From the NCBI RefSeq assembly GCF_039645585.1, contig NZ_CP147915.1, forward strand, positions 1,922,001-1,986,000: a stretch of 64,000 nt of DNA, written 5' to 3'. A program made the translations under genes and the position numbers. The stretch's first letter is position 1. Every line of letters begins with the position of its first letter. The stretch is from Sulfurimonas sp. HSL-1656 (GTDB taxonomy: Bacteria; Campylobacterota; Campylobacteria; Campylobacterales; Sulfurimonadaceae). A model generated the notes under the pieces. The model searched no databases, was not told where the DNA came from, and saw nothing but the letters and a program-made list of their open reading frames with translations. Shown here one piece after another: positions 31,619 to 48,697 of this stretch.

Positions 31619-31704
31619 GCTCTGTCCCATCAAGGAAAATTAAGATGCTATTATGCCCGCAAGGGGCTTGAGGGGGGATAAAGCAGCGGCTTTTGCCGCC
31701 GCCA

Positions 31705-34700
31705 TCAGAAGGTTGCGCGTACCGAGAGTGAGTAGGAGCGGCCTGTTTTATACTTGAAGGTCGTCTGGCTTCCCTGCTCCCAGACCGTTTCGTCGTCGAG
31801 GAGGTTCTTGACTTTGAAAGTCAGGTCCAGCGTCGTATTGAGCGCATCGACCTCGAACTTCTCGATCCAGGTGAAATCGAGCAGGTGCGGCGGGATCTCG
31901 TAATCGTCCAGCCCGAGGATAACGTCGCCGTTTTTCAGTGCGACGCGCATCAGACGGCGGGCCATCTTGTTGTACGAGAGGTTGACCGAACGCGTGTTCG
32001 GGTCGTCGTAGGTGAGCGAGAGGTTGAGCACCTGCGGTGAAAGCCCCTGCAGACCGCGGTCCTGGGTCACGAACTTCGCTTGCTGTTCCGGCGTCAGCTC
32101 CACCTTGGAGTAGATATAGGTGTAGTTCCCGCCGAAACTGACGTCCTCAAGAGACGAATCGATGAAATCGAGGTGCTTGTTCCAGCTCAGCTCGATCCCC
32201 GCCAGCTCCGCCGCCTTGGAGTTGTCGAAGGAGAAGCGCGGCAGGGTACCCGTCGTGAAGGCGCGGGTATCCTCGATCGGGTTGTCCATGTGCTTGTAGA
32301 ACAGCGCCGCCGTCAGGGCGTCCGTCTCGTTCATATAGTATTCGTAGCGCGCATCGATGCTCTGGATATCCGTCTCGATCAGGTCCGGGTTCCCCGCGAC
32401 TTTCGCCAGGTAGAGCGGGTGCATGAACTCGGCATTGACGAACTCACGGAAGTCCGGGTAGATGAAGGTCTCCGAATAGGCCAGACGGAACTGGTTGCTG
32501 TCGTCGAGGCGGTAGGTCATCCCGAGGCTCGGGAGGACTTTGTTGAACTTCAGCGTGTTCGGCGTCAGGACGATGATGTTGTTATCGACCTGATACTGCT
32601 CCACCGTCTGGCGCAGATCCACGTAGCGTCCGCCGAAGGTGATATCCATCGCCTCCGTCGGTTTGATCATCCCTTTGACATAGTAGGCGTTGCGGTCGAG
32701 CTCCGCATTGTACTGGTCTCTGGGCAGTGAGGTCAGCGAGAAGTCCAGGTCCGAACCGTCGCCGTAGTTGATAATGCCGTTGATCGGACCGGAGCTGACA
32801 CCGAGGTCTTTGATGTTACTCTGCATCTGCAGGTCGACCCGGCGCCCTTCACGCTCTTTATGCTCAGTGACGATCCCGGCTTCGAGGTAGTCCTCGTCGC
32901 TGAGCATCGGCACCTGGGTACGGTTCTTCGCATAGACGTTGTAAAGCTTGTCGTCCGTCGTACGGTGGCTGTAGCTCAGCATGCTGTCCGGACGTGCAAA
33001 GACGTACGGCTGCGTCGAGAAGTACTGTTTGTAGTTGTAATAGACATCGTTGGGAACGTATTCGCTCGCCTGGGCAAGCTCCGCGCCGAAATCGAAACGG
33101 TTGTCGACCCACAGCTTGTAGTCAAGGCCGCCGCTGAGCTGATCGATGTTGAGCTCGCGCTCCTGCCATTCGAAATAGTACTGGTGCTCTTTGGAGTTGT
33201 TCTCGCCGAACGTCCCGTTGACGTCACGGGTCTGGTCGAGCGTATTGAGCACGAAGAGTTTCGTATACTGCAGATCCAGGTTGCGGAACTGGTACCCCAG
33301 GCTGATAATCCCGCCGTGCTGGATCGTCGTCTGCAGCATGTCGTTCGTCGCGGTGTTGTCCGGCGTCGGCGTCTGTACCCCGTCACGGGAGACGAGGTAG
33401 TCGTAAGATGTGTAGGTACGCAGGCTGGATTCGCCCTTGTAGCCGTAGGAGGCCAGCAGGCTCAGCTCGTGCTCGTCGGCGATCGTATACTGTTTGCCGA
33501 ACTCGACCTGCACTTCGCCGCCGTAAGGCACCGTCGTCGACTGCGCGTTGACGTCACGGCGCTGCAGCATGGAGCGCAGCTCCGCGTCCGTATAGTTGAG
33601 TGTCGGCGGTGTCGATCCTACCGTCGGCAGGGATGCACTGTTGAACCCGCCCGGGAAAGGGCGGAAACTGTGGTCATAGCCCGTCCAGTCAGAGGAAGCA
33701 CCCTCATACGTGGTCGCATCCTTCCCGGCGCTGTCATGGGCATTGATCCCCAGCTTGATGCTGGCATGGTCCTCATCGACGTTCGACTTGGTCCGCACGT
33801 TGACGTAGCCGCCGCCGAACGCACCGGTGATGTCCGGGGTGAAGGTCTTCTGGACCTGCAGGCTCCCGATGACCATGCTGGGGAACATGTCCAGCGGGAC
33901 CGTCCGTTTGATCGGGTTCGGTGAGGGCAGCGACATCCCGTTGAGCTCGGTGTTCGAGTAACGGTCACCCAGACCGCGGACATAGATGTACTTGCCGCCG
34001 ATAATCGTAATCCCCGGGACACGTTTCAGGGCGCTCGCCGCGTTGGAGTCCCCCTGCTTCGACATCTGCGCGGAACCGATCACGTTCGCGATCGTCTCGC
34101 TGTTGCGGACCTCCGCCATGACGGCCGCGATACTCCCCTCGACCTGCGGCGCCAGGACGACGAACTCTTCGAGTTCCATCGCCGCCGGGCTCAGCTCGAC
34201 CGTACGGCTGACCATCTCTTTGGGCAGGACCGTCACTTTGATGTTCTGCGAAGAGTAGCTGGTGTGGATGATTGAGAGCGTCTGGTTCCCCTCCGGCAGG
34301 TCGATCACGATATGACCGGCCGCATCCGAAACGGCGTTGACCTTCACGCCCGGCACGAAGACACGGGCACCCGCAACCGGTTTCTCATCTTCGCCGGAGA
34401 GCAGTGTCAGCGCCACCGTACCGTTGACGCGCGCGACACTCTTCTTGGTGTCCGCTTCCGTGGCCAGGTCGGCCGGGGCTTCGACGTCCGCGAAGGAGAG
34501 CGTATTGTCCGTCTTGAGCGACAGGATGATCTGGGTCTGTTTGCCCGGCGCGATCACGAAGTTCTTTTTGACGAAGGCCTGGGGCGTCCCGTTGTCCGTC
34601 GCCAGCAGCTGGAGCTGGTAGCGCCCTTCGGGCATTGCCGTGGTCAGGTAGCCCTGCGCATCCGTCATCCATTCGGCGCCGAACATCTCCGATGCCGCAG

Positions 34701-34851
34701 CCCCGTTTTCCGTATCGGAAGGCAGTTCGAGGATAACGACCTGCTGTTCCGGCAGCGGTTTGCCGTCTTTGAGCACGTAGAGTGAAAGCTCTCCGCCCGC
34801 GGCGAAGAGGCTCATGGTCAGCCAGGTTACCAAAAAAAGTATACGCATCAT
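31705..34851 (-). CDS. TonB-dependent outer-membrane receptor of the TonB2 cluster
   Basis: 1048 residues from the ATG at 34851 (ATGA overlap with the TPR gene; a second ATG follows at once). A signal peptide (FLVTWLTMSLFAAGG) is followed by two carboxypeptidase-regulatory-like beta domains (about 20-120 and 150-235), then the plug (VIGSAQMSKQGDSNAASALK, RVPGITIIGGKYIYVRGLGD, RYSNTELNGMSLPSP) and a barrel that ends in RSYSLSVRATF, with terminal Phe. Such receptors take up scarce large or complexed substrates. The ligand is unknown. It is last in the TonB2 operon, in a phosphate-starvation neighbourhood. Confidence 0.93.
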   Translation of the reverse strand: MMRILFLVTWLTMSLFAAGGELSLYVLKDGKPLPEQQVVILELPSDTENGAAASEMFGAEWMTDAQGYLTTAMPEGRYQLQLLATDNGTPQAFVKKNFVIAPGKQTQIILSLKTDNTLSFADVEAPADLATEADTKKSVARVNGTVALTLLSGEDEKPVAGARVFVPGVKVNAVSDAAGHIVIDLPEGNQTLSIIHTSYSSQNIKVTVLPKEMVSRTVELSPAAMELEEFVVLAPQVEGSIAAVMAEVRNSETIANVIGSAQMSKQGDSNAASALKRVPGITIIGGKYIYVRGLGDRYSNTELNGMSLPSPNPIKRTVPLDMFPSMVIGSLQVQKTFTPDITGAFGGGYVNVRTKSNVDEDHASIKLGINAHDSAGKDATTYEGASSDWTGYDHSFRPFPGGFNSASLPTVGSTPPTLNYTDAELRSMLQRRDVNAQSTTVPYGGEVQVEFGKQYTIADEHELSLLASYGYKGESSLRTYTSYDYLVSRDGVQTPTPDNTATNDMLQTTIQHGGIISLGYQFRNLDLQYTKLFVLNTLDQTRDVNGTFGENNSKEHQYYFEWQERELNIDQLSGGLDYKLWVDNRFDFGAELAQASEYVPNDVYYNYKQYFSTQPYVFARPDSMLSYSHRTTDDKLYNVYAKNRTQVPMLSDEDYLEAGIVTEHKEREGRRVDLQMQSNIKDLGVSSGPINGIINYGDGSDLDFSLTSLPRDQYNAELDRNAYYVKGMIKPTEAMDITFGGRYVDLRQTVEQYQVDNNIIVLTPNTLKFNKVLPSLGMTYRLDDSNQFRLAYSETFIYPDFREFVNAEFMHPLYLAKVAGNPDLIETDIQSIDARYEYYMNETDALTAALFYKHMDNPIEDTRAFTTGTLPRFSFDNSKAAELAGIELSWNKHLDFIDSSLEDVSFGGNYTYIYSKVELTPEQQAKFVTQDRGLQGLSPQVLNLSLTYDDPNTRSVNLSYNKMARRLMRVALKNGDVILGLDDYEIPPHLLDFTWIEKFEVDALNTTLDLTFKVKNLLDDETVWEQGSQTTFKYKTGRSYSLSVRATF

Positions 34852-35999
34852 TGCTGGCACTCCCAGATATTGTTTTTGCATTTTTCCATCTTCTTGCGCA
34901 GTTCGACCGCCTTGGAAAAGAGATCCGGCTGCGTCAGGGTCTCGAGCAGCGCTTCGGTCTGTTCGAATTCACCCTCCATATAGTAGGCGTATGCGAGCGC
35001 GTAACGCATGCTCTCCTCTTCCATCAGGCCGCTGCGCGCCATCGCCTGGCGGGTCACGATGATACGCTCATAGTCGCCGTACTCCAGGAAGATCGCGATC
35101 CGCTGCTTGTACTTCTCTTTCGTATCGAGCATCTGCGTGTTTTTGAGCAGCGCCATAACGTAATCACGCGCACGGCGGTACATCTCCGCCGATTCGTTGG
35201 TGTACTTCCCGTCCTCGATGGAGGCTTCGTTGAAAAGCTCCGCCGCGGCACCGATCATCTCCTTGTCAAGGTAGAGGTGCGCAAGCATCACCGTCACCTT
35301 CGCACTGCTCGGGTAGCGCAGGTTCGCCGTTTCGGCGAGTTCGATCGCCTTGTCCGTCTGGCCGCTCTGGCGCAGGGCGTTGATGAAGTTGATCAGGATC
35401 GTCTCGTTCGCCTTGGCATTGGCCAGATAGATCTGCGCATCTTCCAGCGCCGCCTGGTAAAGCCCCAGGGAGACGAGGTAGTAAAAGCGCTGCTTGTAGG
35501 CGTCCCAGTACTCCGGGAAACGGCTGTTCACATCGCGCAGCACCGCCATCGCCCTGTCTTTGTCGCCTTCACGCCAATAACACTCCGCCTTGAGACCGAA
35601 GAGTTTCGGGTTCTGGGCCATAAGGTCGGGGACCTTGTCCAGCGCCGCGATACACCCTTTGTACTCTTTGAGCTTGAAACTGTTCTGGGCGATATAGAGG
35701 TAGAGCGGTTTGGACGCGTTCGTATCCTCGTTCAGCTCGATGGACTTGTAGAAATCCGCATTGGCCTCTTTATAGAGGCTCTGCTTCGTTTCCACCAGAC
35801 CCTTGAGCATGTAGTAGCGCGGCAGGTCGGTCTCGGTATCGTTGAGATCGACCATATTCAGGGCATCGCCGGCACGTTCAACGTGACCGTCGCGCAGCAT
35901 CATCGCCCCCAGTTCGACATAATCGACATCATCGGTTTTGGCAGCCAGTGAGACGGAGAGAGCCCCGACCAATGCCATAACAATCAGTATCTGTTTCAT
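34848..35999 (-). CDS. Periplasmic TPR protein of the TonB2 operon
   Basis: 383 residues with a signal peptide (MKQILIVMALVGALSVSLA). The rest is a chain of tetratricopeptide-like helical pairs, for example YYMLKGLVETKQSLYKEANA, ANLRYPSSAKVTVMLAHLYL and ALAYAYYMEGEFEQTEALLE. It ends with two Cys (KCKNNIWECQQ). TPR proteins are standard members of TonB2/TtpC operons of marine Gammaproteobacteria and probably scaffold the energy-transfer complex. It lies 12 nt after tonB with GAGGAGAACC as ribosome site. Confidence 0.88.
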   Translation of the reverse strand: MKQILIVMALVGALSVSLAAKTDDVDYVELGAMMLRDGHVERAGDALNMVDLNDTETDLPRYYMLKGLVETKQSLYKEANADFYKSIELNEDTNASKPLYLYIAQNSFKLKEYKGCIAALDKVPDLMAQNPKLFGLKAECYWREGDKDRAMAVLRDVNSRFPEYWDAYKQRFYYLVSLGLYQAALEDAQIYLANAKANETILINFINALRQSGQTDKAIELAETANLRYPSSAKVTVMLAHLYLDKEMIGAAAELFNEASIEDGKYTNESAEMYRRARDYVMALLKNTQMLDTKEKYKQRIAIFLEYGDYERIIVTRQAMARSGLMEEESMRYALAYAYYMEGEFEQTEALLETLTQPDLFSKAVELRKKMEKCKNNIWECQQ

Positions 36000-36011
36000 C
36001 GGTTCTCCTCC

Positions 36012-36650
36012 TTAATTGAGGTCGAAGCGGATCTTCTGCTTCGCCCATACTTTGACCGGTTCGCCCTGGTACTGCGCCGGTTTGAACTCCCAGCTCTTGA
36101 CGGCGGCGACGGCAACATCATCAAAGGTGTCGGCCGGGTCGCTCTCGAGCACCTTGACCTTCTCGACACGCCCCTGCTTGTTGATCAGCAGGTTCATCAG
36201 CACGTAGCCCGTGATTCCCATCTTGCGCGCCTTCTTCGGATACTCGATCGGCGTGCGGCGGGAGGGCTGCGGCGCCTGGTCGACCGTATCGTCGGTCATG
36301 ACCATATCCTTGCCGACATCGCCGAGCAGCGCATCGTCGCTGAGCAGGTCATCCGCCTGGAACGCTTCGAGGCCCGTATCGAGGCCGGAGAGCTGTGAGC
36401 TCAGATCCGGTGCCGGGGCGGCGCGCTTGGGCTTCACCTTTTTCGGTTTCGGCTTCGGCTTCGGTTTGGGCTTCGGTTTCGGTTTGGCAACTTTTTGCAT
36501 ATCGAACTGCGCCGAGGCCATCTTCTTCTTCGGCGGTTCCGTCGCCCCCTCGTTGTTCATCTCGATCACGACGATAAAGACGAAAAAGAGACCGAAGACG
36601 CTCCACAGCAGTGCGAGCGCATGCTTTTTCAGCGGGGAAGCGGTACGCAC
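36012..36650 (-). CDS. tonB2: TonB energy transducer (system 2)
   Basis: 212 residues from a GTG at 36650, one base after the exbD stop, with GAGGT in exbD as ribosome site; a longer ATG start at 36695 would lie 44 nt inside exbD. The membrane helix is ALALLWSVFGLFFVFIVVIE, followed by a KP repeat (KPKPKPKPKPKPKPKKVKPK) as periplasmic spacer and a C-terminal TonB domain with PIEYPKKARKMGITGYVLMN and VKSWEFKPAQYQGEPV. The short spacer and the operon context match the TonB2 class. Confidence 0.92.
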   Translation of the reverse strand: MRTASPLKKHALALLWSVFGLFFVFIVVIEMNNEGATEPPKKKMASAQFDMQKVAKPKPKPKPKPKPKPKKVKPKRAAPAPDLSSQLSGLDTGLEAFQADDLLSDDALLGDVGKDMVMTDDTVDQAPQPSRRTPIEYPKKARKMGITGYVLMNLLINKQGRVEKVKVLESDPADTFDDVAVAAVKSWEFKPAQYQGEPVKVWAKQKIRFDLN

Positions 36651-36651
36651 C

Positions 36652-37056
36652 TTAACCGACCTCTTTTTTCGTGGCGACCGCGACGTCTTTGGCACCGGAG
36701 AGGCGGCACTGGTCGACGACTTCGATCAGTTTTTCCACGGCGATCGTGTCATCGGTCACGACGAGCACGGACTTCTCCGTAGAGGTGCGCAGCATATCCC
36801 GCAGTTTGCTCTGGAGCGCCCAGACTTTGATGGGCTGGTTGTCGATATACGCCTGTGCCTGGTTGTCGAGGTAGACCTTGATCACCTTGCTTGATGCCCG
36901 TGAAGCCGACGAGGCCCCCGGACGTTCAAGGTCGAGCTTCATGTCTTTGACAAAGGTCGTACTGACCATGAAAAAGATCAGCAGAATGAATACCATGTCG
37001 ATCAGCGGCGAGATATCGACGGCCTGATCCAGCTCTTTTTTCTGTCTAAAACGCAT
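36652..37056 (-). CDS. exbD2: ExbD (system 2)
   Basis: 134 residues. The single helix QAVDISPLIDMVFILLIFFM holds the channel Asp (DMVFILLIFF), and the periplasmic domain includes LQSKLRDMLRTSTEKSVLVV. It begins directly after the ExbB stop and is followed one base later by tonB2. With the preceding ExbB it forms the proton-driven motor. Confidence 0.94.
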   Translation of the reverse strand: MRFRQKKELDQAVDISPLIDMVFILLIFFMVSTTFVKDMKLDLERPGASSASRASSKVIKVYLDNQAQAYIDNQPIKVWALQSKLRDMLRTSTEKSVLVVTDDTIAVEKLIEVVDQCRLSGAKDVAVATKKEVG

Positions 37057-37671
37057 TTATTTTCCTTCTTCTTCGGAACAGACGATGTCTTTGATCTGTT
37101 CCAGTTCGAGTTCCATGATCTTCGAGCGGCGGTCGATCAGACGGCCGATGACCAGGCCCGGTACGGCGACGACGAGCCCCAGCTGCGTCGTAAAGAGCGC
37201 CTGCGAAATACCGGCGGCGATCCCGCCGCCCTGGCTGTAAAGCGTCATGCTGCCGAGCGAATCGAAGGTCTCGATCATCCCGGCAACCGTACCCAGAAGC
37301 CCGATCAGCGGGGCGACCATGACGATCGTATTGACCGTCTTGCGGTATTTTTTCAGCTCCTGGCGGTAGGGGTAGAACGCGTCCTCGATCAGTTCGCGTC
37401 CGACCGTACCGCGGTAGCCCTCATTAGTGATCTTGAGCGCATCGACGACGGCGCCGTCAATGAGCCCGCGGGGGATTTCGCGCTTGCCCGAATCGAATTT
37501 ACGGATCAGAACGCGGACGCTTTTTTCCGATCCGCGCTTGATGGCGTGGAAACGGTAGCCCAGCGCATACCACAGGACGATGACCAGGACGAACAGCGGC
37601 CACATGACAAAGCCGCCGCTCTGCATGTAGACATCGAACTGGCCGAAAAGGTTTTGAAGTGCCGGTTGCAT
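37057..37671 (-). CDS. exbB2: ExbB (system 2)
   Basis: 204 residues with three helices: GGFVMWPLFVLVIVLWYALG, VNTIVMVAPLIGLLGTVAGM and ISQALFTTQLGLVVAVPGLV. These are classical MotA/TolQ/ExbB blocks. It starts on the last base of the TtpC-like stop (TAATG), so translation is coupled. In TonB2 systems both this ExbB and the longer TtpC-like one are needed. Confidence 0.94.
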   Translation of the reverse strand: MQPALQNLFGQFDVYMQSGGFVMWPLFVLVIVLWYALGYRFHAIKRGSEKSVRVLIRKFDSGKREIPRGLIDGAVVDALKITNEGYRGTVGRELIEDAFYPYRQELKKYRKTVNTIVMVAPLIGLLGTVAGMIETFDSLGSMTLYSQGGGIAAGISQALFTTQLGLVVAVPGLVIGRLIDRRSKIMELELEQIKDIVCSEEEGK

Positions 37672-38984
37672 TACTTCAGCTTGTTATACTCGTTGATCAG
37701 GTGCAGCGCAGACTGCTCCATACCGTCTTTGATACGCTCCGCCCAGCCGTTGAGCATATTGCCCAGCAGCAGCAGCGGGATCGCCACGATCAGACCCAGC
37801 TCCGTGGTAACGAGCGCGATCGAGATACCGCCGGAGAGCAGTTTCGGATCACCCGTACCGAACTCGGTGATGATGTCGAAGGTTGCGATCATCCCGGTAA
37901 CCGTACCCAGAAGACCCAGCAGCGGTGCGACGGCGGCGACGACCATGATGGCCGAGCCGTAACGGTCGAGGCGTTCGCTTTCGTGCATGATGGCTTCGGC
38001 GACGATATCCTCGATATGCTCGCGGTCGCGGTCAAGGTTACGGACCGTCGCCTTCATGACGCGGGCTGCTGCCCCTTTGCGGCTTTTTAGGAATTCCAGT
38101 GTCGCTTCAACCCCTTTGGATTTGAGCTCGACCAGTGTCTCTTTGGCGACCGGCAGCGTTTTGGACGCGGCGCCGCTGAGGAAGAAGCTGCGCAGGACGA
38201 CGAGCAGGAACGCAAAGAGGCCCATGACCACGATGACCCAGCCGATGACGCCGCCGGACTCGATGACATCCATCAGTCCTTTTTCCGTTTTGTCCTCAAC
38301 CTCTTTGGAGACGTTCTCATAGACGAAGATCTCAAGCGATGCCGGTGTCTCTCCCTGGGCCAGTGCCGCCGCTGTCGCTGCAGATGCCGGGGCATCCCAC
38401 AGTTTCAGCTTGTCGCCGCCTGCCGGTACCAGGACGCCGGATGCGCCTTCGGCAACGCCGTAAGTCGCGATGTTACCGACCATGACAAGCTTGCCTTTCT
38501 GCTCCGTACCGTCTTTGAGGTAGAAGCTCCCCTCGGTCACGCGGACAGATGAGAGTTCACGGCCGAGTGTCAGCGTCGATGCAAAAAGCTGCTGCAGGGT
38601 CGTCGGGTAATCTTCTTTGTCGATCGCCAGCTTGATGCCGTACGGGGCGAGGGAGGATTGTCCCTGCAGTGCCACGGACTCAAGCAGTGCCGTATCGTCG
38701 CTGATGCTCTCCGCATTCTGCTGGGAGCGGAAAAGCTGCTCGGCCAGACGGTCGGAGCTCTGTGTTTTGACCAGAACCTCGTTCTGCAGTGACGCGATCT
38801 CATTTTTCGCGGACGCGATACGGGCCGCATCCTCTTTTTTCACCTGTGAAAGGCGCTTCTGGAGCATCTCTTTCTGGGCTTTAAGGAACGCGAACTCTTT
38901 GGCATAGGCGCGCTGCAGTTCTGTTTCTGTCGCGGCGGAGAGGGAAAGTACCGCCATCATCAGGATAAGGACAATACGTTTCAT
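37671..38984 (-). CDS. ttpC: TtpC-like ExbB-family protein with N-terminal extension
   Basis: 437 residues, about twice a normal ExbB. A signal peptide (MKRIVLILMMAVLSLSAA) and a roughly 230-residue periplasmic part with coiled coil (about 20-90) and a beta domain (SFYLKDGTEQKGKLVMVGNI) come before the three-helix MotA/TolQ/ExbB domain (VIGWVIVVMGLFAFLLVVLR, VVAAVAPLLGLLGTVTGMIA, TTELGLIVAIPLLLLGNMLN). This arrangement is that of TtpC, the TonB2-specific extra protein of Vibrio. It overlaps the DUF3450 stop by one base. Confidence 0.9.
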   Translation of the reverse strand: MKRIVLILMMAVLSLSAATETELQRAYAKEFAFLKAQKEMLQKRLSQVKKEDAARIASAKNEIASLQNEVLVKTQSSDRLAEQLFRSQQNAESISDDTALLESVALQGQSSLAPYGIKLAIDKEDYPTTLQQLFASTLTLGRELSSVRVTEGSFYLKDGTEQKGKLVMVGNIATYGVAEGASGVLVPAGGDKLKLWDAPASAATAAALAQGETPASLEIFVYENVSKEVEDKTEKGLMDVIESGGVIGWVIVVMGLFAFLLVVLRSFFLSGAASKTLPVAKETLVELKSKGVEATLEFLKSRKGAAARVMKATVRNLDRDREHIEDIVAEAIMHESERLDRYGSAIMVVAAVAPLLGLLGTVTGMIATFDIITEFGTGDPKLLSGGISIALVTTELGLIVAIPLLLLGNMLNGWAERIKDGMEQSALHLINEYNKLK

Positions 38985-39748
38985 TATTTCACCTCCGTCG
39001 TCGCAATGGCATTCGGCAGGGTAAAGTAGCCGGTGCGGATCTGTTTTTGCATCGCGTCAAACAGCGCGATGATCTGCTCTTGTTCGGTCTTGCTGACGGA
39101 CTCTTTATAGAACCAGCCGTTGGCGTCTTTGGCCGCATAGCCGACACGGTCGTCCGGTGTTCTGAAGAACATCATGATGCTGCCCAGACGCGCGATCTCT
39201 GCCAGGCGGTCTTCACCGTCGAGCTTGATCGTCTGCTTGAACAGGGCGTTCTCCTTGCTCATACGCACTTCATCCGCGTAGCTGTTCCAGACCTGGGCCA
39301 GTGCCTTCTGCGGCGTGATAAGCCCTTCGTTCATCTGTGTCTCGATCCGCGTAACATCGTCGAGGCGCTCTGCCGTTTTGAAAGGAATCTCGGAAGCGAT
39401 CTGCGCTTTGAGGTCGGCGATGGCGGCAACGACAACGGGTTTGATCCCTTCGCTGTTCTTGCTTGCCGCCGTGATCTGCTTGCGGACCTTCTCGATCTCC
39501 TGCTCGATCTGCTTGATCTTCAGGTTTTCGCGCCCGATCGTTGCGTCGAGTTCATTCTTTTCGATGACGAGCGAACGCATTGTCGCTTTCGTGTCATCTT
39601 TTTCTTCCTGAATCTGCGTGTTCAGTTGTTCGACTTCTGCACGCAGCTTCATCAAGGAAGCCGCCATGTTTTCTTCGGTGCTTGCTGCGAGTGTTGACGC
39701 TGCGATCAGCGAACCGGCCAGCCAGAGTTTTATCGTATTCGGTACCAT
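38984..39748 (-). CDS. DUF3450 periplasmic coiled-coil protein
   Basis: 254 residues with a signal peptide (about 1-22). Residues 25-95 form a long coiled coil (MKLRAEVEQLNTQIQEEKDD, LKIKQIEQEIEKVRKQITAA). The C-terminal half has ARLGSIMMFFRTPDDRVGYA and NGWFYKESVSKTE, typical of DUF3450. It is the first gene of the TonB2 operon, as in marine Gammaproteobacteria, where it probably works with TtpC. A weak Pho-box-like repeat lies 60 nt upstream. Confidence 0.9.
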   Translation of the reverse strand: MVPNTIKLWLAGSLIAASTLAASTEENMAASLMKLRAEVEQLNTQIQEEKDDTKATMRSLVIEKNELDATIGRENLKIKQIEQEIEKVRKQITAASKNSEGIKPVVVAAIADLKAQIASEIPFKTAERLDDVTRIETQMNEGLITPQKALAQVWNSYADEVRMSKENALFKQTIKLDGEDRLAEIARLGSIMMFFRTPDDRVGYAAKDANGWFYKESVSKTEQEQIIALFDAMQKQIRTGYFTLPNAIATTEVK

Positions 39749-39807
39749 ACATACCCCACATAAAAAAGATAGGCGAAGGGTACAGAGTTTGCGTTACGTC
39801 ATCGTCA

Positions 39808-39825
39808 CCGTTAGGTAACATTACG
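39808..39825 (-). promoter_or_regulatory. Weak Pho-box-like repeat before TonB2 operon
   Basis: On the minus strand CGTAATG-TTAC-CTAACGG, two half sites with an 11-bp period, close to TGTAATC...TGTAACC. The position 9 nt downstream reads CGTAAC, not a good -10 box, so either this is a weaker site or the true promoter lies elsewhere. Confidence 0.35.
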
Positions 39826-39870
39826 GAAACATTTTGAGATAAATGGGAGGGAAAAAGGGGAAGAAAGGGG

Positions 39871-39896
39871 CCGGGAAACCCCTGCAGGGGCTCCCG
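39871..39896 (-). terminator. Hairpin downstream of beta-helix lipoprotein gene
   Basis: CCGGGA...TCCCGG enclosing the palindromic core CCCCTGCAGGGG, 13 nt past the stop. On the minus strand it is followed by CCCCTTTCTTCCCCTTTTT, a pyrimidine-rich tail that suits factor-independent termination before the TonB2 operon. Confidence 0.65.
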
Positions 39897-39909
39897 GAGG
39901 GCTCAAAGG

Positions 39910-42111
39910 TTACTTTGCAGTAACATCTTTGAAGCTGATAGTCGCTTTTTGTAATGTTGAGAAGAGCTTCTTCGTATGGAAGGCTGCATCCGTGTCGGTG
40001 AGTCTGCTGATCAGACCGTTGACGAATGCCGGAGCCGTCGTATCGTCTTTGATGTAGATACCGCCTTCGTCGCTTCCGTTGACCTTGTTGATGGAGAAGT
40101 TGGAGATCTTCGCCATGGTCATCGGAGTGTCACCGCCACTGGAGATTTCGAAACCAGCATGAGCAATCTCTTTCTGCTGGACAAAGATGTTCGTTGCATG
40201 ACCGCTGTAACCGTAGTCAAGGTCAAAGCTGTCATCCTGGCAGTTGATCATCGCCAGGTTGCTGACGTCTACCGTACCGCCCCAGATCTCGATACAGTCA
40301 TCGGAAGAGTTGATGACCGTGACATCGTCGACAATAGTGCCCGCACCGACACCTGCCAGTGAAAGACCGTTGATCTCGAGGTCTGTTGCGACCGTGTAAC
40401 CGGAGTTCATGATGTAAACGTTGCGCAGGATACCGCTGTTGTCGTTCGCATCACCTGCACCCGCTACCGCGTTACCGAATGCGAAATCTGCATCCGTCTC
40501 GTCAACCTCGTAGAACGGGCTGGCGTGGTTTGTCGGTGCCGCACCCAGAACGGTCAGACCGCCCCACTGGCCGACGTCTCCTGCCGCCGGGCTGAGCAGT
40601 GCCGTCTTGGAAGTAAAGATGATCGGATCGGCTTTCGTACCGTCGGCGATGATCTTGGAACCCTGTGTGATGACGATGTAGTTCGCACCGGCGTCACCGA
40701 AGACAACCGTACCCGCTTCGACTGTCAGCGTTGCACCGTTCTTGACTTTAACCAGGCCCTGAACGTCCCACTGCTTGTCCGCCGTCAGCGTCGTGTCAAC
40801 CGTGATGTCGCCGGTCAGAGCCATGACGTTCGCCGCATCGTATGCCGGAGCCGGCACTGCACTGTAAGTAGAATCGTTGGCTGTATAACGCGTCTCGATG
40901 TCCGCTGCACCGGCACCGTCGTAGAGCGTTTCCGCACGTACGGTTACATCGTTAAATGCGATGACCGCTTTCTGTGTCGCCGAGAAGAGTTTCTTCGTAT
41001 GGAAAGCCGCGTCCGTTGCACCGAGCGTGCTGATCAGGCCGTTGACGAATGCCGGAGCCGTTGTATCGTCTTTGATGTAGATACCGCCCTCGTCGCTTCC
41101 GTTGACCTTGTTGATGGAGAAGTTGGAGATCTTCGCCGTCGTCATCGGAGTGTCACCGCCACTGGAGATCTCGAAACCAGCATGAGCAATCTCTTTCTGC
41201 TGGACGAAGATGTTCGTCGCGTGACCGCTGTAACCGTAGTCAAGGTCGAAGCTGTCGTCCTGGCAGTTGATCATCGCCAGGTTGCTCACGTCAACCGTAC
41301 CGCCCCAGATCTCGATACAGTCGTCAGAGGAGTTGATAACCGTAACATCGTCGATCAGTGTACCTGCACCGACACCTGCCAGTGAAAGACCGTTGATCTC
41401 GAGGTCTGTTGCGACCGTGTAACCGGAGTTCATGATGTAAACGTTGCGCAGGATACCGCTGTTGTCGTTCGCATCACCTGCACCCGCTACCGCGTTACCG
41501 AATGCGAAATCCGCATCCGTCTCGTCAACCTCGTAGAACGGGCTGGCGTGGTTTGTCGGTGCCGCACCCAGAACGGTCAGACCGCCCCACTGGCCGACGT
41601 CAGCCGTTGAAGGATCCTGCAGTGCAGCCTTGGAAGTAAAGATAATCGGATCGGCTTTTGTACCGTCTGCGATGATCTTGGAACCCTGTGTGATGACGAT
41701 GTAGTTCGCACCGGCGTCACCGAAGACAACCGTACCCGGCTCAACCGTCAGCGTCGCGCCGTTTTTAACTTTGACCAGGCCCTGAACGTCCCACTGCTTG
41801 TCCGCCGTCAGCGTCGTGTCAACCGTGATGTCGCCGGTCAGTACGCTGATGTTCGCAGCATCGTATGCCGGAGCCGGTACTGCACTGTAAGTAGAATCGT
41901 TCGCTGTGTAACGTGCCTCGATGTCCGCCGCGCCCGCACCATCGTAAAGAAGCGTGCTTGTTGTCGTCGTATTCGTATCTGTTGTCGTGTTCGTATCGGT
42001 GTTGACAGTGGTTCCTGTACTGCCGCCGCCGCCGCCGCAGCCTGAGAAAGTCAGAAGAATGGCTGTCGCAGCGCTCAGGGCGATTGCGGATGTGTTTTGT
42101 GAAAGGGCCAT
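39910..42111 (-). CDS. Beta-helix lipoprotein with tandem internal duplication
   Basis: 733 residues. The signal peptide ends in the lipobox TFSGC (Cys25), followed by GGGGG and a Thr/Asn/Asp linker (about 30-53). Then come two near-identical units of 341 residues (54-394 and 395-733), each starting LYDGAGAADIE and ending near DVT. Each unit shows the short strands and turns of a right-handed parallel beta helix (GLVKVKNGATLTVE, GTVVFGDAGANYIVITQGSK, DDCIEIWGGTVDVSNLAMIN), many Asp/Asn that could bind cations, and Cys in NCQDD. I infer an outer-membrane surface or periplasmic binding protein that works with the TonB2 receptor. No enzyme motif is seen. Confidence 0.85.
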   Translation of the reverse strand: MALSQNTSAIALSAATAILLTFSGCGGGGGSTGTTVNTDTNTTTDTNTTTTSTLLYDGAGAADIEARYTANDSTYSAVPAPAYDAANISVLTGDITVDTTLTADKQWDVQGLVKVKNGATLTVEPGTVVFGDAGANYIVITQGSKIIADGTKADPIIFTSKAALQDPSTADVGQWGGLTVLGAAPTNHASPFYEVDETDADFAFGNAVAGAGDANDNSGILRNVYIMNSGYTVATDLEINGLSLAGVGAGTLIDDVTVINSSDDCIEIWGGTVDVSNLAMINCQDDSFDLDYGYSGHATNIFVQQKEIAHAGFEISSGGDTPMTTAKISNFSINKVNGSDEGGIYIKDDTTAPAFVNGLISTLGATDAAFHTKKLFSATQKAVIAFNDVTVRAETLYDGAGAADIETRYTANDSTYSAVPAPAYDAANVMALTGDITVDTTLTADKQWDVQGLVKVKNGATLTVEAGTVVFGDAGANYIVITQGSKIIADGTKADPIIFTSKTALLSPAAGDVGQWGGLTVLGAAPTNHASPFYEVDETDADFAFGNAVAGAGDANDNSGILRNVYIMNSGYTVATDLEINGLSLAGVGAGTIVDDVTVINSSDDCIEIWGGTVDVSNLAMINCQDDSFDLDYGYSGHATNIFVQQKEIAHAGFEISSGGDTPMTMAKISNFSINKVNGSDEGGIYIKDDTTAPAFVNGLISRLTDTDAAFHTKKLFSTLQKATISFKDVTAK
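39913..41952 (-). repeat. Tandem 1023-bp intragenic duplication
   Basis: Unit 1 spans 40930-41952 and unit 2 spans 39913-40929; equivalent bases are exactly 1023 bp (341 codons) apart. Long stretches are identical at DNA level, for example around 40432-40560 compared with 41455-41583, while the ends of the units differ more (TADVGQWG against AGDVGQWG, and LISTLGATD against LISRLTDTD). Confidence 0.93.
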
Positions 42112-42141: not shown

Positions 42142-42196
42142 AGTGTAAAATTGTTTTGTTACAGCCCCTGCACAGCAAGATCACTGAATGATTACA
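42142..42196 (-). promoter_or_regulatory. Phased Pho half sites before beta-helix gene
   Basis: Reading the minus strand, four heptamers start at exact 11-bp steps: TGTAATC (42196), AGTGATC (42185), TGTGCAG (42174) and TGTAACA (42163). Nine bases after the last pair (18-mer ending at 42157) lies TACACT (42142-42147), the position a -10 box has at the other Pho promoters here. The two middle half sites are imperfect. Confidence 0.55.
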
Positions 42197-42222: not shown

Positions 42223-42255
42223 TGTAACCGAAACGTAATGTCCTTTTAATAAGGT
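42223..42255 (+). promoter_or_regulatory. Pho box and weak -10 before orphan PhoB gene
   Basis: TGTAA-CCGAAA-CGTAA-TG at 42223-42240, the 11-bp direct repeat, followed after 9 nt by TAAGGT (42250-42255). The alternative TATAAA at 42263 lies farther away. The arrangement implies autoregulation or PhoB control. Confidence 0.6.
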
Positions 42256-42293
42256 TCCGTGCTATAAACATTAATTTGCACAAGGTACAAGCT

Positions 42294-42968
42294 ATGAAAG
42301 CTACGATTGCCATCGTTGAAGACGATACTGATCTTCTTGAGCTCCTGGAATACAGACTGGGCAAAGAGGGCTTCGACGTTGTCGGTTTCACCAATACGAA
42401 AAATGTCAAGCAGGTCCTGACCGAAGAGCCGGTCGACCTGATCCTCATGGACCGTAACCTTCCCGATGTCGAGGGAAGCGAATATATCGCGATGCTGCGC
42501 TACCAGGGGCTGAAAACCCCGGTGATCTTCCTCTCGGCCAAAGACGGCAGTGCCCAGGTGCAGGAGGGGTTTCTCCGGGGCGGCGACGACTACATCACCA
42601 AGCCATTTGAAATCGATGAGCTGATCCTGCGGATCAAAGCGGTCCTGCGCCGCACCCGCGGCGAGGAAGAGGAGCAGATCGTCACCTACCGCGACATCGA
42701 GCTGCACCTGCATTCGCGCGAAGCCTTCATCGCCGGCATGCCCGTCGAACTGACCAAACTGGAGTTCAACCTGCTGCGTACCTTTATCGAGAACCGCACC
42801 ACCGTGCTGCGGCGCGACTACCTTCTCAAAAGCGTCTGGGGGAAAAGCGACAGCTACCAGGGGCGCACGGTCAACGTCGCCATCAACCGCCTCAAAGAGA
42901 AGATCGACCCGGACAAAAGCAAAGACTACATCAAAACCGTCCGCGGCATCGGCTACATGATCCGCTAA
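42294..42968 (+). CDS. PhoB-type response regulator, orphan paralogue
   Basis: 224 residues from the ATG at 42294. The receiver has Glu9-Asp10-Asp11, phospho-Asp53 in LILMDRNLPD and Lys in YITKPFE. The winged-helix domain has ELTKLEFNLLRTFIE and the recognition helix GRTVNVAINRLKEKID. It is very similar to the regulator at 47144-47818, with identical stretches over the recognition helix, so both probably bind the same DNA. No kinase gene adjoins. It is divergent from the beta-helix lipoprotein gene and has its own Pho box. Confidence 0.92.
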   Translation: MKATIAIVEDDTDLLELLEYRLGKEGFDVVGFTNTKNVKQVLTEEPVDLILMDRNLPDVEGSEYIAMLRYQGLKTPVIFLSAKDGSAQVQEGFLRGGDDYITKPFEIDELILRIKAVLRRTRGEEEEQIVTYRDIELHLHSREAFIAGMPVELTKLEFNLLRTFIENRTTVLRRDYLLKSVWGKSDSYQGRTVNVAINRLKEKIDPDKSKDYIKTVRGIGYMIR

Positions 42969-43043
42969 CCGGTGCGCCCGCACCGTAGACAACAGCAATA
43001 AAATCAAAAAATATATTTTAGAAAAGAAGTTAAACGAAAGAAA

Positions 43044-43112: not shown

Positions 43113-43898
43113 TCAGCCGAACTTGCCGCTGATGTACTCCTGGGTCAGTTTTTCCGCCGGGGTGACGAACATCTCGTCGGTCTTGTTCAGCTCAATCAGC
43201 TCGCCCAGGTACATGAAGCCCGTATAGTCGCTGACCCGGGCCGCCTGCTGCATGTTGTGCGTGACGATGATGATCGTGACGCGGTCGCGCAGCTCCATGA
43301 CGAGCTTCTCGATCCCCTGGGTGGAGATGGGGTCGAGCGCCGAGGTCGGTTCGTCGAAGAGCAGGACGTCCGGCTCGACGGCGATGGCACGGGCGATACA
43401 GAGGCGCTGCTGCTGGCCGCCGGAGAGACCATTCGCATCGTGCTTGAGGCGGTCCTTGACCTCGTCCCAGATCGCGGCGTCGCGCAGCGCCTTCTCGACG
43501 CGGTCGGCGAGCTCCGTCTTGTTTTTGAGTCCCTGCAGGCGCATGCCGTAGGCGATGTTGTCGAAGATGCTCATCGGGAACGCCGTCGGTTTCTGGAAGA
43601 TCATCCCGATCTTGATGCGCAGGTTGATCAGGTCCTCTTTGCTCTCGACGATATTGCGCCCTTCGAACATGATCTTGCCGTCATACTGGTTCCCCGGGTA
43701 GAGGTCGTGCATGCGGTTGAACGAGCGCAGCAGGGTCGTCTTCCCGCAGCCCGAAGGCCCGATCAGGGCCGTCACCGCGTTTTTCGCGATCGGCATGGAG
43801 ATGTTTTTGAGGTTCGGTGACGTGGCACCGGCATAGGTAAAACTGAAATTGTTGACTTCGATCGCCTTCTCGGACGGAATGTCGATTACGGTCGCCAT
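43113..43898 (-). CDS. pstB: Phosphate ABC transporter ATPase PstB
   Basis: 261 residues. Walker [11 protein letters not shown]-loop [20 protein letters not shown], signature [16 protein letters not shown] and Walker [13 protein letters not shown]. The [12 protein letters not shown] and [11 protein letters not shown] segments are characteristic of PstB. It powers inner-membrane phosphate import through PstC and PstA, 3 nt after pstA. Confidence 0.98.
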
Positions 43899-43901
43899 AG
43901 G

Positions 43902-44744
43902 CTATCTCCCTTTTTTCTTGAGTAGGATCAGACGGCCCAGAATGTTGAGGCCGAGAATGAACATCGAGAGGATGAACGCCGCGGCCCATCCCATCTTCTG
44001 CCAGTCCTCATAGGGGCTGGTCGCGTAGTTGAACATCGTCACGGTCAGCGACGCCATCGGCTCGCTGAGATCGTAGTTGAGGAAGTTGTCGTTGAACGAC
44101 GTAAAGAGCAGCGGTGCCGTCTCCCCGCCTACACGGGCGATCCCCAGCAGGACACCGGTGAGGACCCCCGCTTTCGCACCGCGGTAGACGACCTGCATGA
44201 TCACCTTGTACTTCGGTGCGCCCAGGGCGAAGGCCGCCTCGCGCAGGGTCGAGGGGACCAGCTGCAGCATATCGTCCGTCGTGCGCAGAATGATCGGGAT
44301 CATGATGATCGCCAGCGCCACGACGCCGGCCCAGCCGCTGAAATGGCCCATCGGCAGGACGATGATGGCGTAAACGAAAGAGCCGATAACGATACTCGGC
44401 GCACTCATCATGATGTCGGAGATGTCGCGGATGATCTCCGCGAGCTTCGACTTCTGCCCGTACTCGCTGAGGTAGGTCCCGGCCAGGATGCCCAGGGGCA
44501 CGCCGACGGCGGTCGCCACACCGACCAGGATCAGCTGGCCGATCAGTGCCTGCCGCAGACCGCTCTCCTCGTAGCCAGGAGGCGCCCCTTCGAAGATGAA
44601 GATGTTCCAGTTGATGGCGTCGATGCCGTTGGCGACGAGGACGTAGAGGATCCAGAAGAGAAACCCGATCCCGATCAGGGCCGAGAGGCTCGAAAGCCCG
44701 AGAACGATCTTGTTGACGAGCAGGCGTTTTTCAATCGCGGTCAT
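43902..44744 (-). CDS. pstA: Phosphate ABC transporter permease PstA
   Basis: 280 residues with six membrane helices. The permease loop is TLREAAFALGAPKYKVIMQV, and ARVGGETAPLLFTSFNDNFL is the PstA-specific segment. ATGA overlap with pstC indicates coupled translation. Confidence 0.97.
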   Translation of the reverse strand: MTAIEKRLLVNKIVLGLSSLSALIGIGFLFWILYVLVANGIDAINWNIFIFEGAPPGYEESGLRQALIGQLILVGVATAVGVPLGILAGTYLSEYGQKSKLAEIIRDISDIMMSAPSIVIGSFVYAIIVLPMGHFSGWAGVVALAIIMIPIILRTTDDMLQLVPSTLREAAFALGAPKYKVIMQVVYRGAKAGVLTGVLLGIARVGGETAPLLFTSFNDNFLNYDLSEPMASLTVTMFNYATSPYEDWQKMGWAAAFILSMFILGLNILGRLILLKKKGR

Positions 44745-45601
44745 TTCACTTTCCTTGTACGGCGCAGAAAATAGAACTTGGCCAGCGCGATGATGACGAA
44801 GCTCATCACCATCAGGATCAGCGCCAGTTCGAAGAGGCTCGAGAAGTAGAGATCCGTATCGGCCTCCGTGAACTCATTGGCAAGGGTGACGGGAATCGAC
44901 GTCGCCGGCGCGGTAATGTCCAGCGAGATCTTGTGCACGTTCCCCATGACGAAGGTGACGGCCATCGTCTCGCCGACGGCACGGCCCAGGGCCAGGATCA
45001 GCGAACCGATGATCCCCGCCTTGGCGTAAGGGATGACGACATCCTTGATGACGTCCCACTTCGTCGCCCCCAGGGCGTATGCCGACTCTTTGAGGATGTC
45101 GGGCGTCGTGTTCATCGCGTCGCGGGTGACCGCCGCCATGAACGGCAGGATCATGATCGCGAGGATGATCCCCGCGGTAAGCATCCCGATGCCGAGTCCC
45201 CCGAAAATGTCCCGGATGATGGGCACGAAATAGAAAAGCCCCCACATCCCGTAGATAACCGAGGGGATCGCCGCCAGCAGCTCGATGGAGACCCCGACGG
45301 GGGATTTGAGTTTCGCCGGGGCGATCTCGCTCAAAAATATCGCCACCCCGATCGCGACCGGGACCGCGAACAGCATCGCCAGGAAAGTCGAGATGACCGA
45401 ACCGGCAATCGCGGCGAACCCGCCGAATTTTTCCAGGTTCGGCGCCCATTTGTCCTGGAGGATGAAATCGAACCCGAACGCGGCGATCGCCTCTGTGGAG
45501 TGCTGAAAAAGCACCGTAAAAATCCAGGCGACGAGCAGCAAAATAGCCACCGCGACAAAGCGGGTCGCGTTCGCAAACAGTTTGTCAATCAGTAGTGTCA
45601 A
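44741..45601 (-). CDS. pstC: Phosphate ABC transporter permease PstC
   Basis: 286 residues with a TTG start at 45601. Family blocks: FGGFAAIAGSVISTFLAMLF, ELLAAIPSVIYGMWGLFYFV, LKESAYALGATKWDVIKDVV and GRAVGETMAVTFVMGN. It is first of pstCAB, with a Pho box and a -10 box at 45650-45682 immediately upstream. The binding protein gene pstS is about 3 kb away on the other strand, beyond phoR-phoB-phoU. Confidence 0.97.
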   Translation of the reverse strand: MTLLIDKLFANATRFVAVAILLLVAWIFTVLFQHSTEAIAAFGFDFILQDKWAPNLEKFGGFAAIAGSVISTFLAMLFAVPVAIGVAIFLSEIAPAKLKSPVGVSIELLAAIPSVIYGMWGLFYFVPIIRDIFGGLGIGMLTAGIILAIMILPFMAAVTRDAMNTTPDILKESAYALGATKWDVIKDVVIPYAKAGIIGSLILALGRAVGETMAVTFVMGNVHKISLDITAPATSIPVTLANEFTEADTDLYFSSLFELALILMVMSFVIIALAKFYFLRRTRKVK

Positions 45602-45649: not shown

Positions 45650-45682
45650 ATGGTAAGCTACAAAGGTTACAGAAACATTACA
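45650..45682 (-). promoter_or_regulatory. Pho box and -10 box of pstCAB
   Basis: On the minus strand TGTAA-TGTTTC-TGTAA-CC (45665-45682), then 9 nt, then TACCAT (45650-45655). A further TGTAG lies just downstream. The site falls between the phoR stop and the pstC start. Confidence 0.75.
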
Positions 45683-45713: not shown

Positions 45714-47150
45714 TCAGAGCAGTGGGACGTCGGCTGCCGGCGCGGTATCCGAAGCGGCACCCGGCAGGAGGGGGGCGAGGCTGAATCCGAACGAGGAGCC
45801 CTCCCCTTCCACGCTGCTGATCTGAAGCTTCGTGTTGTGCAGGGCCAGGATGTAGCTGACGATGGAGAGCCCCAGTCCCATCGAATTGTCCCAGGTGTTC
45901 TTGTCGACACGGTAGAACTTGCTGCTGATACGGTCAAGCTCCTTTGCGGCGATGCCGATCCCCCGGTCATGGACCCAGAGCATCCCGTCCACGATCTCCA
46001 GTGTCACCGCACCTTCGGAGTATTTCATCGCGTTATCGAGCAGGTTCGTGACGACCAGGTCGATCATCGTGCGGTCCGCTTCGACGCTGCTGGGGGGACA
46101 GGAGACGTCCAGGGTCCGGTCGGTGTACTTTTTCCCGATATTGTTTGCACACTCGGTCGCCAGGTCGCAGAGGTCGAACCGGCTCTTCGCCGGGGCCAGG
46201 TCGTTGTTCTCGAGCTTGACGGAGAGCGACAGGCGGTCGAGCATCGTCGAGATCTTCTGGGCGTTGGCCGTGATCTTCTGCAAGAAGCGCTGCCGGATCC
46301 GGCCGTCGATTTCCGGATCGTCATGGAGCGTCTCCGCGTAACCGACGATCGAGGCAATCGGGTTCTTGAACTCGTGGCTGATCGCCGAGAGGATATCGTT
46401 GCGCTGCTTGTTGATGAGGCGCAGCCGCGCCGTGTACTTGCGCTTCTGCCGCTCCCGCTTGGCCAGCTTCTTGACAAGGTTCTTGAGCAGCAGCGAGATC
46501 TGCAGGAACTCGGTGAAATAGCGCGGTTTGACGACCGCCTTGTAGTTCTTGTCGCTGATCTCTTCGAGGTAGGCCGAAAGCTGGGCGATGTCGTACCGGA
46601 TCTTGCGGCTCATCCGCACCGCGAGGTAAACTACGACGAGCAGCAGCAGGGCCAGGACGCCCGCCAGCCGGTAGAGCAGCTTATAGAAGTCGTCGAGCAC
46701 CTTCTGCAGACTGACGGCGATGCGCAGCGTATAAGAGCGCCCCTGCCAGACGATGCGCTTGGCCACGTAAAGAAAATCGATGCCGATAGTATGGGAGAAG
46801 CGGACGGCCTGGCCGAACTCCCCTTTGGCGGCGGCCATGACCTCTTCGCGGTTGGCATGGTTCTCCATCTCTTCACGGTTGGCATCGCTCTCTGCGGCCA
46901 CCGTGCCGTCGGAGGCAATCACGGTAATGCGTTTGCCGATCCGCGGTGCCGTCTCCGCAATATAGGCGTCAAGGCTGGGAACGTAATGCAGGGTGGACTC
47001 GATCAGCCCGATCTCCTGCTTGAGACGTACCTCGTAGTCGCTGATGACGGACTCTTTGAGGGTAAAGTAACCCACAAACGAGGCAATAACCCCCATCAGC
47101 GCGAAGATGCCGAGGAACTGGAGTACGAAAGAGTGGTGGATTTTCAGCAA
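45714..47150 (-). CDS. phoR: PhoR-type sensor histidine kinase
   Basis: 478 residues from a TTG at 47150, next to the regulator stop. Helix 1 (about 9-30), a periplasmic sensor of about 125 residues (contains RIGKRITVIASDGTVAAESD and FLYVAKRIVWQGRSYTLRIA), helix 2 (about 162-180), a linker, then His259 in SAISHEFKNPIASIVGYAET, VVTNLLDNAMKYS, WVHDRGIGIAA and GLGLSIVSYI. The periplasmic domain resembles that of PhoR kinases of Gram-positives rather than the short E. coli type. It follows the PhoB gene and precedes pstC. Confidence 0.92.
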   Translation of the reverse strand: MLKIHHSFVLQFLGIFALMGVIASFVGYFTLKESVISDYEVRLKQEIGLIESTLHYVPSLDAYIAETAPRIGKRITVIASDGTVAAESDANREEMENHANREEVMAAAKGEFGQAVRFSHTIGIDFLYVAKRIVWQGRSYTLRIAVSLQKVLDDFYKLLYRLAGVLALLLLVVVYLAVRMSRKIRYDIAQLSAYLEEISDKNYKAVVKPRYFTEFLQISLLLKNLVKKLAKRERQKRKYTARLRLINKQRNDILSAISHEFKNPIASIVGYAETLHDDPEIDGRIRQRFLQKITANAQKISTMLDRLSLSVKLENNDLAPAKSRFDLCDLATECANNIGKKYTDRTLDVSCPPSSVEADRTMIDLVVTNLLDNAMKYSEGAVTLEIVDGMLWVHDRGIGIAAKELDRISSKFYRVDKNTWDNSMGLGLSIVSYILALHNTKLQISSVEGEGSSFGFSLAPLLPGAASDTAPAADVPLL

Positions 47151-47818
47151 AGTGTGTACCCTACTCCGCGTACCGTTTTGATGTACTCTTTGCTCTTGTC
47201 CGGGTCGATCTTCTCTTTGAGGCGGTTGATCGCGACGTTGACCGTGCGGTCCTGGTACACCTCATCGCCTCCCCAGACATGTTCAAGCAGGTAGTCCCGG
47301 TCGAGGACGACGTTCTGGTTGGAGATTAGCGTATGCAGCAGGTCGAATTCGAGCTTGGTGAGCGTGACGGGGCTCCCCTCGATGGTCACCTCCCGCGAGG
47401 CGAGGTTGAGCAGGATGTCCCGGTAGGCGACGACCCCCTCGGAAGGGCTGCCCTTGGTCCGGCGAAGCACGGCATTGATGCGCAGCAGCAGCTCTTTCAT
47501 ATTGAAGGGCTTGGTCATATAGTCGTCCCCGCCGCGCATGAACCCCTCTTCGATGTCACTCTCTTTGTTTTTGGCACTGAGGTAGATGACCGGGGTCTGG
47601 ATCCCCTCCTTGCGCAGCCCCGCGACGAATTCGCTCCCCTCCGCACCGGGCAGGTTCCGGTCCATGATCATCAGGTCGACCGACTCCTCCTCGAGCACGC
47701 GGCGGACGTTTTTCGTGTTCAGGAATCCGATCGTCTCAAACCCCTCTTTCTCCAGATTGTACTCGATGAGTTCGAGAAGGTCCTCTTCATCCTCAACAAT
47801 GACTATCGTCGTTTGCAT
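47144..47818 (-). CDS. phoB: PhoB response regulator
   Basis: 224 residues from the ATG at 47818, chosen by alignment with the paralogue at 42294; a TTG at 47842 that overlaps the phoU stop is the alternative and adds eight residues. Receiver with Glu9-Asp10-Glu11, phospho-Asp53 in LMIMDRNLPG and Lys in YMTKPFN; winged helix with TLTKLEFDLLHTLI and RTVNVAINRLKEKID. Partner kinase PhoR follows with an overlapping start. It is the likely binder of the TGTAA-N6-TGTAA repeats in this region. Confidence 0.94.
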   Translation of the reverse strand: MQTTIVIVEDEEDLLELIEYNLEKEGFETIGFLNTKNVRRVLEEESVDLMIMDRNLPGAEGSEFVAGLRKEGIQTPVIYLSAKNKESDIEEGFMRGGDDYMTKPFNMKELLLRINAVLRRTKGSPSEGVVAYRDILLNLASREVTIEGSPVTLTKLEFDLLHTLISNQNVVLDRDYLLEHVWGGDEVYQDRTVNVAINRLKEKIDPDKSKEYIKTVRGVGYTLC

Positions 47819-47838
47819 CGCGTTTCCCACTCCCTTAT

Positions 47839-48507: not shown

Positions 48508-48607
48508 GCTCATCCTTACTTTATTTCAGATAGTGTAACACAACTCCTTAGCGTGCCGGTATCCCCGGGCCGCGGCAGCCGTGTTTTATAAATAAATGAC
48601 GGGCGGG

Positions 48608-48640
48608 ATTATACGGGGGCTAGGTAACATAAAGGTTACA
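48608..48640 (-). promoter_or_regulatory. Pho box and -10 box of phoU-phoB-phoR
   Basis: On the minus strand TGTAA-CCTTTA-TGTTA-CC (48623-48640), then 9 nt, then a perfect TATAAT (48608-48613). Same geometry as the pstS site 25 nt to the right on the other strand. Confidence 0.8.
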
Positions 48641-48664: not shown

Positions 48665-48697
48665 TGTAATCATTTTGTAACCGTGCGATTCTACAAT
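48665..48697 (+). promoter_or_regulatory. Pho box and -10 box of pstS
   Basis: TGTAA-TCATTT-TGTAA-CC (48665-48682), then 9 nt, then TACAAT (48692-48697), 28 nt before the pstS ATG. Confidence 0.85.

Follow-up and report, generated by a model that had tools for sequence, protein, structure and literature searches.

Why should a complete TonB energising system, with its own outer membrane receptor, lie beside the phosphate genes of a bacterium? The question arises in Sulfurimonas sp. HSL-1656, in which a stretch of 64,000 nt (NZ_CP147915.1, positions 1,922,001–1,986,000) was analysed. This whole stretch is termed the window here, and coordinates refer to it unless marked C1. The initial annotation described a single operon encoding a DUF3450 protein, a TtpC-type ExbB, ExbB, ExbD, TonB, a TPR protein and a receptor. 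Open reading frame calls and Pfam assignments bear this out: the seven genes span 31705–39748, all on the minus strand, and are separated by overlaps or by gaps of no more than 12 nt. The order given for the upstream side, a lipoprotein gene, a second phoB and then the pst-pho genes, was recovered in the same way. The genes are as follows.

31705–34881, minus: TonB-dependent receptor (TBDT), 1058 aa, with Pfam PF13715 (CarbopepD_reg_2), PF07715 (Plug) and PF00593 (barrel)
34848–35999, minus: TPR protein, TtpD-like (Pfam TPR_19), in the operon place of ttpD2 of Vibrio (PMC6957404)
36012–36695, minus: TonB (PF03544)
36652–37056, minus: ExbD (PF02472)
37057–37671, minus: ExbB (PF01618)
37671–38984, minus: TtpC-type ExbB (MotA_ExbB) with a long N-terminal extension, PF01618 at residues 305–423 of 437
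38984–39748, minus: DUF3450 protein, TtpB-like (PF11932), sharing its 20 genomes with the receptor
39910–42111, minus: predicted beta-helix surface lipoprotein, ElpS-like by its lipobox, AF2 model, fold search and ElpS-type gene order in Alphaproteobacteria
42276–42968, plus: second PhoB-type regulator
43113–45601, minus: pstB, pstA and pstC, named from sequence and homology across loci
45714–48513, minus: phoR, phoB and phoU (open reading frame calls, Pfam)
48726–51353, plus: pstS and an OprP-like porin gene (sequence-based)

The receptor carries a TonB-box-like sequence, ELEEFVVLAP. A gap of 161 bp, with its own promoter, separates the lipoprotein gene from that of DUF3450, and two transcription units are therefore likely, the lipoprotein gene and the DUF3450-to-receptor operon. 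The regulator at 42276–42968 is 66% identical to the PhoB encoded at 47144–47842, with a near-identical recognition region. Within the genus the two proteins cluster with each other, pointing to a lineage-specific duplication. A minus-strand open reading frame at 42246–43007 was rejected as a gene, as it is only the reverse-strand shadow of this regulator's own gene. The neighbours had been described as all phosphate genes; this holds for the upstream, pst-pho side, but the downstream side has genes for a hemN-like radical SAM protein, an Fe-S protein, PgpA and ATP-sulfurylase, and thiC. The TonB inventory of the window also needs amendment, as a tonB-exbB-exbD set at 13881–18044 is present besides the complete TtpC system. 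This second set is accompanied by a two-component system and an amidohydrolase.

The lipoprotein has the lipobox FSGC, a pI of 4.1 and two near-identical modules of ∼340 aa each. The beta-helix fold first assigned to it is upheld with moderate confidence by an AlphaFold model (pLDDT 72), in which the two modules form parallel beta-helices. The best PDB fold matches of the model are solely beta-helix folds (lyases, tailspikes and Ag43), with low TM-scores. An acidic ladder, DDxxExWGG...DDxxDxD, is kept in nearly every module. No Pfam or NCBIfam family matched the lipoprotein above threshold; a NeuB match was sub-threshold and is treated as spurious. A search of PDB sequences with the receptor and the lipoprotein gave no useful match, and a receptor AlphaFold model built from six sequences (pLDDT 49) was left out of the analysis. 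The module number in homologues varies from one to three. The corresponding halves of the lipoprotein share ∼88% DNA identity, as seen against genome G359.

Regulatory signals are predicted upstream of both units, as well as upstream of the other phosphate genes.

39793–39831, minus: predicted Pho box of the TonB operon, half-sites TGTTTC, TGTTAC, GGTGAC and CGTAAC at an 11-bp period, −10 TACCCT at 39777–39782
42158–42196, minus: predicted Pho box of the lipoprotein gene, half-sites TGTAAT, AGTGAT, TGTGCA and TGTAAC at an 11-bp period, −10 TACACT at 42142–42147
42223–42239, plus: predicted Pho box of the second phoB, TGTAAC-N5-CGTAAT
45666–45682: predicted Pho box of the pstB-A-C unit
48624–48640: predicted Pho box of the phoR-phoB-phoU unit
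48665–48681 and 49948–49964: predicted Pho boxes of pstS and the OprP-like porin gene

The matrix used (22 bp, consensus TTTTTGTAATCATTTTGTAACC) was trained solely on pstS, pstC, porin, Pit and PhoA promoters; the DUF3450 and lipoprotein promoters were held out, and 369 promoters served as controls. The median best score was 12.0 bits for DUF3450 promoters and 15.2 for lipoprotein promoters, versus −4.2 for controls (95th percentile 8.2). Mann–Whitney p-values against controls are 9e-10 and 6e-10, respectively, and overstate independence because the loci, although spanning several families, are related by descent. The test is conservative in another respect, since some control promoters belong to phosphate genes that were not listed as such (Pit, PPK2, porins). 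TGTAAC half-sites, most often four of them, are typically arranged in tandem in the operon and lipoprotein promoters. When four half-sites are modelled together, an 11-bp period gives a strong signal and periods of 9, 10, 12 and 13 bp a weak one. Both arrays of the window end ten bases before a TAnnnT −10 sequence. As the pstS and oprP promoters of the window show two clear half-sites and the TonB unit four, the latter may need more PhoB to fire. Exact two-site boxes number five in the genome, three of them at pstC, pstS and oprP of the window. A separate group of three tandem half-sites (TGTTAC, TGTAAC and TGTAAC, 11-bp period) lies at G000:C1:1441311–1441338 between convergent genes; no gene that it might serve is evident downstream, and it possibly marks a small RNA. 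A Fur-box scan with an E. coli-type consensus gave a best match of 11/19, and positive-control iron loci scored no better.

The linkage extends beyond this genome. Three proteins (receptor, DUF3450 and lipoprotein) were searched for in 397 Campylobacterota genomes. The receptor is present in 20, and DUF3450 in the same 20, with two weak additional matches at 22% identity. The lipoprotein is found in 19 of these; in the remaining genome (G195) the contig starts just before DUF3450. Gene neighbourhoods were inspected in the 19 other genomes and in five named MAG loci, and the energiser–receptor order is kept throughout, barring copies truncated where a contig ends. In most copies the lipoprotein gene opens the set, but it follows the receptor in G060 and L029. 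On this comparison of gene order the operon does travel with pst-pho: a PhoB-type regulator adjoins the set or lies within a few kb in 18/20 genomes (G233 and G060 have none nearby), and pst genes occur within the examined stretch (8–60 kb per genome) in 10/20. The regulators near the set share one clade with PhoB, separate from other OmpR-family regulators. Beside other copies are Pit (PHO4), a Na/Pi cotransporter, PPK2 and phosphate-type porins, and the L028 copy has two PhoA alkaline phosphatases. Given these links to PhoB, pst, Pit, Na/Pi transporters, PPK2 and PhoA, the TtpC-type system appears confined essentially to a phosphate context within the 397-genome sample of the phylum. A chance position beside pst is rejected by the phylum-wide linkage together with the Pho boxes. 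In the relatives L026 and L049 (G331), pst has PPK2 genes as well as Pit and Na/Pi transporters beside it, which suggests a larger phosphate island there.

Outside the phylum, receptor and lipoprotein homologues are adjacent in Gammaproteobacteria, Alphaproteobacteria and Bacteroidota, in plasmid and chromid records. Alteromonas macleodii pBGP9 carries, in this order, phoB, phoR, phosphate-binding protein, oxygenase, lipoprotein, receptor, DUF3450, ExbB, ExbB, ExbD, TonB, TPR. The Alteromonas lipoprotein homologue (L078 5714–9784) has 1356 aa, nearly double the length of that of the window, and adjoins a 2OG-Fe(II) oxygenase. Pseudoalteromonas copies have the same arrays without adjacent pho genes, and one has siderophore genes 3 kb from the set; 11-bp arrays are found at both promoters of the Alteromonas and Pseudoalteromonas copies, but not at these siderophore genes. 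In Sphingomonas and Indioceanicola the lipoprotein–receptor pair precedes a type II secretion (gsp) cluster. A TtpC search of plasmid records gave no match at 1e-10, a cut-off that is too strict, as the family is annotated in L078–L080 and L087.

Sister species G287/G304 show how the set changes. Between them and the window genome the energiser and TPR proteins are 91–99% identical, and PstB, PstS and the second PhoB 93–99%, versus 43–44% for the receptor and 37–38% for the lipoprotein. Within the receptor, identity is 48–94% over residues 1–250, ∼60% in the plug and 18–44% in the barrel. The break is sharp: DNA homology of 85–93% is interrupted twice, from 31686 to 33843 and from 39835 to 42023. 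Judged by these breakpoints, replacement is limited to the barrel of the receptor and the mature part of the lipoprotein, and the machinery is kept. Receptor and lipoprotein distances across 17 loci correlate after energiser distance is removed (r = 0.59, permutation p = 2e-4); the same correction gives 0.01 for receptor and TPR. Joint exchange and distance co-variation argue for a barrel and a lipoprotein that function in contact, with specificity, or phage resistance, changing by cassette. A possible, rather than probable, extension is that a TtpC-type TonB motor dedicated to phosphorus is fitted with an exchangeable specificity cassette of barrel and beta-helix lipoprotein. The cassette would be swapped between sister species by recombination in conserved flanks, changing the phosphorus substrate or escaping phages, while motor, promoters and regulation are retained.

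Taken as a whole, the set is probably induced by phosphate starvation and takes up, across the outer membrane, a phosphorus-containing compound whose size or low concentration puts it beyond the reach of porins. A phosphorus-uptake role, proposed in the initial annotation, thus gains support from the linkage to PhoB and pst, the Pho boxes at both promoters, the homologous pairs reported as induced by phosphate starvation in Caulobacter (the lipoprotein) and Flavobacterium, and the presence of an iron-type TonB locus elsewhere in the genome. That locus (C1:62–70 kb) is of heme/siderophore type, with a siderophore/heme-type binding protein and a globin; the genome has 8 plug-domain receptors. 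Because distantly related bacteria have this set as well, a dedicated phosphorus pump is most likely. We infer induction from the promoter signals: when phosphate is short, PhoB, and probably its paralogue, would bind the tandem 11-bp half-sites and switch on the two units, the beta-helix lipoprotein and the receptor operon with its own TtpC-type energiser. The lipoprotein, presumably at the cell surface, would capture a ligand or present it to the barrel of the receptor. Proton force transmitted by TtpC, ExbB, ExbD and TonB would open the plug for import, aided by the DUF3450 and TPR proteins. Where needed, periplasmic hydrolysis of the product would follow, before its entry by Pst or Pit.

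Several points count against uptake. There is no phosphatase gene in the operon and no PhoA in the genome, which encodes one weak PhoX-like protein, and hence no obvious hydrolase if esters are imported. The overall acidity of both lipoprotein and receptor gives no hint of direct binding to anions. Two of the 20 genomes, G233 and G060, have the set with no PhoB close to it. In Caulobacter crescentus, the TBDT gene cc0171, beside the gene of the surface lipoprotein ElpS, is reported to be expressed constitutively, and a shift to poor medium brought no detected change in intracellular phosphate (PMC2996285).

Perhaps the receptor acts outward or at the surface, exporting or positioning a beta-helix lipoprotein that itself captures phosphorus compounds or activates phosphatases. 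In Myxococcus xanthus, secretion of PopC depends on the TBDT Oar (PMC6434023), ElpS is reported to get to the Caulobacter surface without the type II secretion system (T2SS; PMC2996285, in part), and the receptor–lipoprotein pair is adjacent in two further phyla with distances that co-vary. Known surface lipoprotein/TBDT pairs (SusCD) import, however, and production of ElpS, as distinct from its surface location, is reported to persist in a CC0171 deletion (PMC2996285, in part). An outward role is considered unlikely.

It is quite unlikely that the set takes up a metal or a metal–phosphate complex needed in phosphate starvation, such as calcium- or iron-bound phosphate, and not organic phosphorus. 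The acidic ladder of the lipoprotein modules would fit such a role, as acidic repeats often bind calcium; but acidic ladders are also found as purely structural calcium sites, and the alkaline phosphatases beside the L028 copy favour esters.

Ordinary TonB2-type iron uptake, placed near pst by chance, is very improbable: it can draw on the shared gene order with the iron-regulated Vibrio TonB2 energiser, which has a putative Fur box (PMC6957404), and on the siderophore genes near one Pseudoalteromonas copy, but it is opposed by the recurrent Pho linkage and Pho boxes, the absence of the array from those siderophore genes, the separate iron-type TonB locus of this genome and the Flavobacterium TBDTs reported, in the available part of the source, to be induced under Pi depletion only (PMC8115612).

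With uptake of a phosphorus compound as the preferred reading, what is new can be set against what is known. A receptor–lipoprotein pair under phosphate control has already been reported (ElpS/CC0171; FI/FII-TBDT), and phosphate-starvation TBDTs are known in Bacteroidota and Caulobacter, without established energy source or substrates in the portions of the reports available (PMC8115612, PMC2996285). Neither a dedicated TtpC-type motor within a Pho-controlled set nor a barrel–lipoprotein exchange was found in the literature searched, mostly non-subscription papers; these two features, the exchange being between sister species, are the new elements. Since motor, receptor, surface protein and Pho promoters are in one small set, a single tonB or receptor deletion tests TonB-powered phosphorus uptake. 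Recurrence of the set in marine Gammaproteobacteria gives it relevance to phosphorus-poor waters.

The closest known pair is that of Caulobacter, in which phosphate-starved cells make the surface lipoprotein ElpS (cc0170; PMC2996285). By gene order and description the window pair resembles it in linking the gene of a surface lipoprotein, predicted as such in the window, to a TBDT gene, although in the window energiser genes lie between the two. Homologues in Sphingomonas and Indioceanicola keep the lipoprotein–receptor–gsp order of that cluster (PMC2996285, in part), and the Pho boxes predict phosphate-starvation production for the window pair as well. In contrast, the Caulobacter pair is linked to the T2SS, with no TonB energiser described for its cluster in the available text (PMC2996285), whereas no gsp genes lie beside the window pair. 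In F. johnsoniae, the lipoproteins FI and FII are reported as ElpS homologues beside TBDTs and strongly induced by phosphate depletion, FII lying in the phoBR operon with OprP (PMC8115612, in part). The phosphate utilisation systems PUSIII and PUSIV of this species, induced when Pi is depleted, combine a CarbopepD_reg TBDT with a pectin-lyase-fold or polygalacturonase-like lipoprotein, PUSIV within the phoBR/OprP cluster (PMC8115612, in part). The window likewise has a CarbopepD_reg and Plug TBDT with a lipoprotein modelled as a pectin-lyase fold in a pho cluster; it differs in its dedicated ExbB/ExbD/TonB set, as none is described for F. johnsoniae in the accessible part of the report (PMC8115612). 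VreA/VreI/VreR of Pseudomonas aeruginosa is another PhoB-controlled locus with TonB-type components but, compared by description, serves sigma/anti-sigma signalling (PMC4971064, in part). Vibrio TonB2 shares all six energiser genes and their arrangement, ttpB-ttpC-exbB-exbD-tonB-ttpD (PMC6957404). That system is iron-regulated, whereas the window promoter has predicted Pho boxes and the receptor and lipoprotein are part of the set. As the energiser order matches that of a system which serves iron, the motor of the window would be of a known kind with a different job.
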